From Dietzia cinnamea NBRC 102147 (lineage in GTDB: Bacteria > Actinomycetota > Actinomycetes > Mycobacteriales > Mycobacteriaceae): 64,000 nt of DNA. Below, one piece after another: positions 30,249 to 32,691 of the stretch (its first letter is position 1; each line of letters opens with the position of its first letter). The notes beneath the pieces are model-generated. The model did not search any database. It saw only the letters and a list, made by a program, of their open reading frames with translations, and was not told the origin of the DNA. Made by a program: the position numbers and the translations under genes. Location of the stretch: the NCBI RefSeq assembly GCF_001571065.1, contig NZ_BCSW01000009.1, positions 1 through 64,000 on the forward strand. The letters run 5' to 3'.

Positions 30249-31439
30249 GTGGCGAAGGCGAAGTTCGAGCGGACGAAGCCGCACGTTAACATCGGCACCA
30301 TCGGTCACGTCGACCACGGTAAGACCACCACCACCGCGGCCATCACCAAGGTTCTGGCGGACACCTACCCCGAGCTCAACGACGCCTTCGCGTTCGACGA
30401 GATCGACAAGGCGCCGGAGGAGAAGGCTCGTGGCATCACGATCAACATCTCCCACGTCGAGTACCAGACCGAGAAGCGTCACTACGCGCACGTCGACGCC
30501 CCCGGTCACGCCGACTACATCAAGAACATGATCACCGGTGCCGCCCAGATGGACGGCGCGATCCTGGTCGTGGCGGCCACCGACGGCCCGATGCCCCAGA
30601 CCCGTGAGCACGTGCTGCTCGCCCGTCAGGTCGGCGTGCCCTACATCCTCGTCGCCCTCAACAAGTGCGACATGGTCGACGACGAGGAGATCCTCGAGCT
30701 CGTCGAGATGGAGGTCCGCGAGCTGCTGGCCTCGCAGGAGTTCGACGAGGACGCCCCCGTCGTGCACATCTCGGCGCTGAAGGCGCTCGAGGGTGACGAG
30801 AAGTGGGTCCAGGCCGTTCGTGACCTCATGCAGGCCTGCGACGACTCGATCCCCGATCCCGAGCGTGAGACGGACAAGCCGTTCCTCATGCCCGTCGAGG
30901 ACGTCTTCACGATCACCGGCCGTGGCACCGTCGTCACCGGTCGTATCGAGCGTGGCCGGATCAACGTCAACGAGGACGTCGAGCTCATCGGCATCCGCGA
31001 CAAGGCCACCAAGACCACCATCACGGGCATCGAGATGTTCCGTAAGCTGCTCGACTACGGCGAGGCCGGCGACAACGTCGGTCTGCTGGTGCGTGGCCTC
31101 AAGCGTGAGGACGTCGAGCGCGGCCAGGTCGTCATCAAGCCGGGCGCCTACACCCCGCACACCACGTTCGAGGGTCAGGCGTACATCCTGTCCAAGGACG
31201 AGGGTGGCCGTCACACGCCGTTCTTCAACAACTACCGCCCGCAGTTCTACTTCCGTACCACGGACGTGACCGGCGTCGTGACCCTCCCCGAGGGCACCGA
31301 GATGGTCATGCCGGGCGACAACACCGAGATGAGCGTCGAGCTCATCCAGCCGGTCGCGATGGACGAGGGCCTGCGGTTCGCCATCCGTGAGGGTGGCCGC
31401 ACCGTCGGCGCCGGCCAGGTCACGAAGATCATCAAGTGA
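30249..31439 (+). CDS. tuf: Elongation factor Tu
   Basis: 396 residues, GTG start after [15 protein letters not shown] (P-loop), [12 protein letters not shown] (switch I), [12 protein letters not shown] (switch II) and NKCDMVDD are intact; domains II and III follow with no gap. It carries aminoacyl-tRNA to the ribosome. It lies 176 bases after fusA, enough for its own promoter. A 17-base-pair terminator ends the transcript. I see only one tuf copy in the window. Confidence 0.98.
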
Positions 31440-31480
31440 TCGAGTGATCCCACGGCGCGGGTGAGCAACTCGCGCTACTC

Positions 31481-31518
31481 GTGAAGGGCGTCCCACCAAG
31501 AGGTGGGGCGCCCTTCAC
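31481..31518. terminator. tuf terminator (bidirectional)
   Basis: A 17-base-pair stem (31481-31497 with 31502-31518, one G-T wobble) around an AAGA tetraloop. It lies 41 bases after tuf and also ends the opposing small gene at 31550. Confidence 0.85.
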
Positions 31519-31549
31519 GCATTCGCTGGCGGCGGTGGTCCCGAGTCGA

Positions 31550-31822
31550 TCATCGTCGGCGGCCCAGGATGCTCATGGCGACGGACAGGCCGACCGCGGC
31601 GACCCCCGCGAACGCCGTGACGGCGACCGCGGCGACCTGTTCGGCGCTGGCGCCGTGATCGCCGCGACCGGCGCCCACCACGCCGTGTCGCCTGTCGACC
31701 TCTTCGAGAGCGCGCAGGAGCGCGTCGGGATCGCCGCCCTTGTCGGGATGATGGCGGAGGACGGCCTGCCGCCTGTCCCTTCGATAGGCGACCGGGTCAC
31801 GGGGTTCACGTCGACTGTTCAC
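31550..31822 (-). CDS. Small J-domain-like protein with C-terminal membrane segment
   Basis: 90 residues, too short to stand out among GC-rich reading frames but supported by AGGAG eight bases before the GTG start. Residues 10-45 look like the core of a DnaJ J domain: a basic helix (AYRRDRRQAVLRHH), the HPDKGGD loop that includes the HPD tripeptide needed to stimulate DnaK, and a third helix (DALLRALEEVDRR). Helix I and helix IV are missing. Residues about 62-86 form one hydrophobic segment ending in RRR, consistent with a tail anchor. It is convergent with tuf and shares its terminator. Function is unknown; a membrane Hsp70 co-chaperone is a guess. Confidence 0.6.
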   Translation of the reverse strand: MNSRREPRDPVAYRRDRRQAVLRHHPDKGGDPDALLRALEEVDRRHGVVGAGRGDHGASAEQVAAVAVTAFAGVAAVGLSVAMSILGRRR

Positions 31823-32385
31823 GGGCAGATCTCCTAGTGGGCGGACGCGGTCGTTGATCTCCCCGACGGTACCCACATCAGCATGCCCGACGCGGCGATG
31901 TCCGGGCTGAGGCGGTGCGGGAGTAAGGCGTCGGGCCCGCCGATTTTGCCCTCGGCCACGATGTACTGCATACTGGTCGAGTTGCCCGGACAAGGCGGCG
32001 TCTGCGTATGGGTCCTCAGGGATCGGTGCGCTGGGTCGGGTTGGCCGGGCGAGCACGACAGTGGCGGGTGAGCGATCACCCGCCGGGAAAGCGGGAGGGC
32101 GACACGCCCGACTGCGTGGACGCGTCGTGACACGTCAACAGCGGCAGCGGATCGGTCCGCCGTCATCCTCGCCTCGCGCGAGTGTGCGGCATCCCGTCCT
32201 CTGGGGGTCTCGTAGTCGTGTCACGTGTGTGCACGGGGGAGCCCTCCACGACGGGCACCGATGCACGGGACCGGGTTATCGACGGTCTGACGGTGTCACG
32301 TATGACAAGCGAACACAGTAGTGTCCCCGCGCGGCGAGGGCGCTCACGACAGCCGCCTTCACGGGCGGGAGGAGAAGAGGACGAA
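31823..32385. other. 563-bp intergenic region before the S10 operon
   Basis: No convincing gene on either strand; the short open frames lack family features and good ribosome sites. It holds a 9-base-pair hairpin with a GCGA loop (32063-32084), two direct copies of TGTCACGT (32219-32226 and 32294-32301), the second inside the inverted repeat TGTCA-N4-TGACA (32294-32307), and a TAGTGT -10-like element (32319-32324). It presumably contains the divergent promoters of the J-like gene and the S10 operon, but I could not fix a -35. Confidence 0.5.
32063..32084. other. Strong hairpin in the pre-S10 region
   Basis: GGCGGGTGA (32063-32071) pairs perfectly with TCACCCGCC (32076-32084) around GCGA, a GNRA tetraloop. 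No gene ends next to it, so it may be a leader or processing structure. Confidence 0.45.
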
Positions 32386-32691
32386 GTGGCGGGACAAAAG
32401 ATCCGCATCCGGCTCAAGGCCTATGATCACGAGGCCATCGACGCATCGGCGCGCAAGATCGTCGAGACGGTGACCCGTACGGGTGCTCGTGTCGTCGGCC
32501 CCGTGCCGCTGCCCACCGAGAAGAACGTCTACTGCGTCATCCGCTCGCCGCACAAGTACAAGGATTCGCGTGAGCACTTCGAGATGCGTACCCACAAGCG
32601 GTTGATCGACATTCTCGACCCCACGCCGAAGACCGTGGACGCGCTCATGCGCATCGACCTGCCTGCCAGCGTCGACGTCAACATCCAGTGA
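32386..32691 (+). CDS. rpsJ: 30S ribosomal protein S10
   Basis: 101 residues, GTG start preceded by GGGAGGAG. Conserved core: [59 protein letters not shown]. It binds the 16S head and, with NusB, takes part in antitermination. It heads the S10 operon rpsJ-rplC-rplD-rplW-rplB-rpsS-rplV-rpsC-rplP-rpmC-rpsQ. Confidence 0.98.

Follow-up and report, generated by a model that had tools for sequence, protein, structure and literature searches.

The window, a stretch of 64,000 nucleotides of Dietzia cinnamea DNA, contains on its minus strand a gene of 90 codons and a stop (31550..31822), which starts with GTG and which we call mini-J. A Shine-Dalgarno-like AGGAG lies 8 nt 5' of the GTG (31831..31835, minus strand), and a similar purine-rich site is present at most of the genus loci printed. 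A longer N-terminus, offered by a frame of 168 amino acids, was ruled out: the ribosome-binding site serves the inner GTG, and the open frame upstream of it has no constant length, spanning about 100 to 223 residues in relatives of the genus. On one side mini-J is convergent with tuf (EF-Tu; 30249..31439, plus strand), which was recognised directly from its sequence, and on the other it is divergent from rpsJ (S10; 32386..32691, plus strand); the two neighbours served as landmarks of the interval. The first-pass annotation had rightly placed the gene beside tuf, and a strong hairpin of 18 pairs (31480..31519, assigned to no strand; -39.1 kcal/mol, z -7.1), which has no T run, lies between the two convergent genes and is probably their shared transcription end. 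In appearance the hairpin resembles a bidirectional terminator of a high-GC genome; scans for a classical terminator and a sigma-70 promoter gave nothing.

The 90-residue open reading frame picked out by the first-pass annotation (minus strand, 31822..31550) has homologues at the equivalent place in the genus: mini-J together with the adjoining rpsJ was found in 20 of the 23 genomes, the window's genome counted. At 18 of these 20 loci tuf is seen as well, the remaining 2 loci being shortened sequence. One divergent genome of the genus, G011, has its mini-J copy in a different setting, inside an Asp23 operon, and the protein encoded there is 57% identical to that of the window (alignment A1). 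No mini-J was found in two other genomes (G004 and G009), where a search run without its own positive control gave no match to rpsJ either; since rpsJ is unmatched there too, the absence of mini-J from these genomes is uninformative. Among the named public genomes matched by the protein, six of seven are Dietzia and the seventh is a short match in Desulfosarcina. Profile searches extended the family to 114 of 401 genomes of the GTDB family, 69 of 249 of the order and 39 of 197 of the class, counts that are not exact frequencies, since only the best 13-24 candidates per genome were scored, and of which the last includes proteins resembling true J domains. Relatives are thus found in the genus, family, order and class, and the proviso of the first-pass annotation that there might be no homologues anywhere is false.

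Mini-J is a real gene under strong selection. The median dN/dS over pairs of the 20 genus sequences is 0.09 (180 ratios used out of 190 pairs, nine with saturated dS and one with a dS of zero having been dropped), and the third codon position is variable in 87 of 90 codons, the second in 29 of 90. Leaving G011 out gives a ratio of 0.046 over residues 2-48, 0.077 over the tail and 0.45 over the linker; selection is strong at the two ends of the protein and far weaker in the linker. That the frame is spurious or dying, as its short length, GTG start and lack of a curated family match could suggest, is hardly credible in view of the low dN/dS, the concentration of variation in third positions and the conserved ribosome-binding site.

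Resemblance to the J domain

The sequence HPDKGGD occupies residues 25-31 of the 90-amino acid protein, HPD itself being residues 25-27 (31742..31750, minus strand). AlphaFold2, run with 22 and with 54 relatives, gave two helices, residues 10-24 and 32-46, flanking this loop, with block means of 83-94 pLDDT over residues 11-50; structure prediction, the check proposed in the first-pass annotation, thus yields, as a confident two-helix hairpin, the loop with flanking helices that had been described there. The HPD motif is therefore predicted to sit between two antiparallel helices as it does in J domains, and together with the profile comparison given below this delimits a J-like finger of residues 10-46 (31685..31795, minus strand), made of the counterparts of helix II, the loop and helix III. 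In searches with the model, Foldseek and VIA-align placed Tim14 and DnaK-bound DnaJ near the top, the matches being weak (Foldseek E >1, VIA Z <=3.6).

The same resemblance is seen in sequence comparisons. All 11 PDB matches of profile A1 (22 relatives, E up to 10) are J-domain molecules, the best being TIM14/Tim14 with an E of 0.0015; the broader profile A2, from whose alignment locus L085 was omitted, performed more weakly, with clear J domains in 4 of 10 matches and a best E of 0.06. Compared with a profile of 32 true actinobacterial J domains, the family scored 31.6, the maximum of 100 column-shuffled controls being 13.0. With the HPD columns deleted the score was 14.9, which 2 of 200 controls equalled or exceeded, and this fall means that homology to J domains beyond HPD depends on a short pattern. 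The pattern includes the basic face of helix II, which in J domains is turned towards Hsp70: arginine stands at -7 from HPD in 84/84 mini-J family cores and 32/32 true J domains, and arginine or lysine at -11 in 73/84 and 31/32, respectively. Positions -5 and -4 are hydrophobic in 83 and 84 of the 84 family cores. At -8, the tyrosine or phenylalanine of all 32 true J domains is replaced by arginine in 73 of the 84 family cores, and at -6 the mini-J family has lost the basic residue of J domains. HPD is invariant in alignments A1 and A2 and is contained in all 40 processed profile hits at distant loci; in the 84 family cores, which were chosen for containing HPD, its invariance is partly built in.

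Helix I, which is normally part of the J-domain fold and packs on helices II and III, is missing. No helix precedes residue 10 in the AlphaFold2 models, just as the first-pass annotation had said, and only 24 residues precede HPD in the window protein. The absence is family-wide: at the 40 distant loci, 10-34 residues separate HPD from the nearest start codon. The Pfam DnaJ model PF00226 did not match the window protein at E values up to 10 and matched only 2 of the 54 members of A1/A2, with a best E of 0.056, below the gathering cut-off; no convincing family was found in Pfam, PHROGs or NCBIfam for the window protein or its relatives. The description of the protein as J-domain-like consequently holds for the finger of helix II, HPD and helix III and fails for membership in the strict sense: lacking helix I and scoring below the Pfam cut-off, mini-J is not a J domain by strict definition. 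It may nevertheless work like the docking finger of one.

The C-terminus of the window protein is a charge-poor stretch followed by RRR. Its Ala/Val-rich hydrophobic part, residues 60-86 (31565..31645, minus strand), which is followed by a short GRRR end, is a candidate tail anchor, as suggested by its hydrophobicity, by the low dN/dS of the tail and by a helix (residues 60-85) that the AlphaFold2 run with 54 relatives adds; the tail has low pLDDT in both models. The first-pass annotation was correct in seeing one hydrophobic segment here: the best 19-residue Kyte-Doolittle mean is 2.22, though the summed apparent insertion energy is borderline: by the scale used, genus members come out slightly unfavourable, at +0.4 to +0.9 kcal/mol. 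Insertion of the tail into the membrane is likely. The hydrophobic Ala/Val C-terminus is a feature of the genus, the C-terminal Kyte-Doolittle value being 2.15-2.29 in 16/16 genus members of A2, G011 included, and <=0.84 in the 38 other members, whose tails are basic. Outside Dietzia, many mini-J proteins (L062-L099) have a basic tail that closes with a recurring motif such as R-R-Y-F-D-I or R-R-Y-I-D-L; this ending may serve for docking to Asp23 or to the membrane.

Asp23 operons and the place beside tuf

Beyond Dietzia, the usual neighbour of mini-J is a gene for Asp23 (Gls24/DUF322). We examined 40 loci, hand-chosen for variety and flanked by about 5 kb at either end, 39 of them from the 114 family genomes with a hit and one from G054. 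A full Asp23 gene lies near mini-J in 31 of these ten-kb loci, in 31/31 cases upstream and on the same strand, and the HPD codon follows 260-538 bp past the Asp23 stop. At the level of the order, Asp23 was seen in 27 of 30 loci with 1.5-kb flanks, the window itself being among the three without it, and at the level of the class in 17 of 28 newly fetched loci; where Asp23 was lacking at class level, the hit was mostly a longer protein, and several of these can be recognised as full J domains carrying an HPDxGG loop. In the reverse test, with 30 loci of the order centred on Asp23, only 10 had a mini-J within 1.5 kb, from which it follows that Asp23 does not need mini-J. Six loci (L075, L079, L084, L086, L090 and L094) carry mini-J with no Asp23 detected within about 5 kb. 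Mini-J genes without a nearby Asp23 in further lineages mean that such orphaning may have happened more than once.

The window protein is homologous to the mini-J proteins of Asp23 operons, with 42% identity to the copy of G026 in alignment A1 and the higher value given above for that of G011. In the latter genome, rpsJ (minus strand) is followed on the plus strand by Asp23, a small second gene, mini-J, a DUF2273-like gene, a Pro-rich Asp23-like gene and an AmaP-like gene, and further on by tuf and fusA, both on the minus strand. Asp23 and the Pro-rich Asp23-like gene of this operon are backed by PF03780 hits; the small gene, which we take to be Asp23-like, and the presumed DUF2273-like and AmaP-like membrane genes were named by recognition. 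A Corynebacterium-like locus (L080) likewise has Asp23 and mini-J between rpsJ and tuf, and two others (L076 and L081) have mini-J in the same interval with Asp23 not detected.

In the window's genome a PF03780 search found no Asp23, and the tuf-rpsJ interval of Dietzia, usually about 950 bp, gave no significant remnants of Asp23, DUF2273 or AmaP. The simplest history suggested by these gene orders is that the Asp23 operon was lost at the tuf-rpsJ site in most Dietzia and that mini-J alone was retained. As G011 has both the hydrophobic tail and the operon, the tail is probably older than the operon loss. Asp23 hits were obtained in 9 of the 23 genus genomes, namely in G011 and in eight genomes with a more distant Asp23; near the seven loci of this distant type that were examined (L102-L108; G009, G012, G016, G005, G013, G015 and G003) no mini-J was found, HPD triplets occurring there by chance in other frames. 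This second, more distant type of Asp23 cluster in several Dietzia is perhaps a separate acquisition.

The cargo of the rpsJ-tuf interval varies among L061 (with L109), L076, L080 and L081: it may be an Asp23 operon, a Pro-rich frame of 488 amino acids, a GntR-like regulator (by eye) or mini-J alone. In one Dietzia genome (G018, locus L020) the interval measures 1868 bp and carries extra content. Elsewhere in the window, hits of the Pro/Ala-rich Asp23-like protein look like low complexity, and the G011 mini-J has a second, weak match at 57203-57114, which is Arg/Gly-rich low complexity; both were rejected.

A role for the EF-Tu neighbourhood finds no support, because in relatives the gene occurs with Asp23, and the tuf-rpsJ interval is merely where that operon resides in G011 and L080. 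A function tied to EF-Tu or to translation would explain why the position by tuf is held in 20 of the 23 genus genomes; it is very improbable nonetheless, given that the two genes are convergent with a strong hairpin between them, that just four of the 40 distant loci show tuf or rpsJ (L061, which is of the genus, and L076, L080 and L081), the others having mini-J with Asp23 or alone, and that the Asp23 operon accounts for the place.

Proposed function and its alternatives

The reading that we favour, and that we regard as evenly poised between right and wrong, is that mini-J of Dietzia is a minimal J-type co-chaperone tethered to the membrane, which brings DnaK there. Its descent from the mini-J of the actinobacterial Asp23 envelope-stress operon is established; contact with DnaK, ATPase stimulation, membrane insertion and clients are inferred. 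Such a protein would consist of a two-helix finger, bearing the HPD loop and a basic helix II face, a free linker, and a hydrophobic C-terminal helix, which would anchor it to the membrane's inner face. Helix II and HPD would dock on ATP-bound DnaK, helix II meeting the nucleotide-binding domain and HPD pointing at the arginine that triggers hydrolysis. These are the contacts described, in the accessible text, for a solved complex of a J domain with DnaK, where helix II touches the nucleotide-binding domain and HPD points at a key arginine of DnaK (PMC7289447). Docking would bring DnaK to the membrane or trigger it there, its ATPase being stimulated, and membrane-bound or envelope-assembly proteins would be kept soluble or remodelled as a result. 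The ancestral client would have been the Asp23/AmaP layer: one account describes Asp23 as a filament-forming protein that AmaP anchors at the membrane, and calls its molecular function still unclear (PMC6954212).

A different and rather unlikely possibility is that mini-J serves the Asp23 layer, or another envelope protein, as a structural partner and has no action on Hsp70, with HPD-GG kept as a tight turn for that contact. The Asp23 context (31/40 and 27/30 loci), the departure from J domains at -8 and -6 and the absence of helix I would all fit this explanation. It is harder to reconcile with the finger of the Dietzia protein being the region under the strongest selection (dN/dS 0.046) though the window's genome lacks Asp23 by PF03780, and a turn alone would have no need of Arg at -7 in addition to invariant His, Pro and Asp.

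Less probable still, and in our judgement quite improbable, is that mini-J is a J-like regulator: it would bind DnaK but leave it untriggered and, lacking helix I, would compete as a decoy or brake with real J-proteins at the membrane. Pam16 is such a brake-type partner of Pam18, and the best PDB sequence match of the family is Tim14/Pam18; the retention of HPD and of basic helix II, with family-wide loss of helix I, would be consistent with a competitor of this sort. Brakes of the Pam16 type have lost HPD, whereas HPD is invariant in the aligned mini-J sequences, the cores of which were picked by HPD.

On the view that mini-J is a co-chaperone, a wider proposal can be made, one to which we incline only tentatively and with somewhat more doubt than belief: a half-size J family without helix I, spread across actinobacteria, may couple the Asp23 envelope-stress layer to DnaK, the Dietzia form being a self-anchored recruiter of DnaK that has become independent of Asp23. 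That many actinobacteria encode a J-like protein directly after Asp23 suggests an action of Hsp70 on the Asp23 membrane layer. Mini-J also bears on the question of whether Hsp70 can be driven by a finger of two helices that lacks helix I; if a half-size J family does act on DnaK, helix I would be dispensable for a natural Hsp70 co-chaperone. The Dietzia protein, left after the Asp23 genes have gone, separates the function of mini-J from that of Asp23.

Comparison with known systems

Three known systems come close to mini-J. The first is the J domain itself (PF00226, as in Tim14/Pam18 and DnaJ), with which it shares the basic and hydrophobic pattern of helix II, the HPD loop and helix III, and from which it differs by the lack of helix I, the replacement of the helix II tyrosine by arginine and a score below the Pfam cut-off. 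The second is the Asp23/AmaP/DUF2273 operon of Staphylococcus aureus and its actinobacterial forms. Mini-J orthologues sit in an operon of this kind, whereas in most Dietzia mini-J stands alone, and in the window there is no Asp23 directly upstream of it. The accessible part of the description of the S. aureus system mentions no J-like protein (PMC6954212). Among the literature matches listed, which cover few subscription papers, no title described a J-like protein linked to Asp23 or a J domain without helix I of this kind.

The third system comprises DjlB and DjlC, tail-anchored class C proteins of Escherichia coli, which, as far as the accessible text of the two sources goes, have like mini-J an HPD finger and one C-terminal hydrophobic segment, but differ in that they possess a J domain and work with HscC, mini-J being a protein of 90 amino acids without helix I (PMC8215388, PMC6794478). 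The complete J domain of the DjlB/DjlC type is thus not found in mini-J. Since DjlB and DjlC exist, the tail-anchored J architecture is not new; mini-J is new in lacking helix I, in its tiny size and in its link to Asp23.
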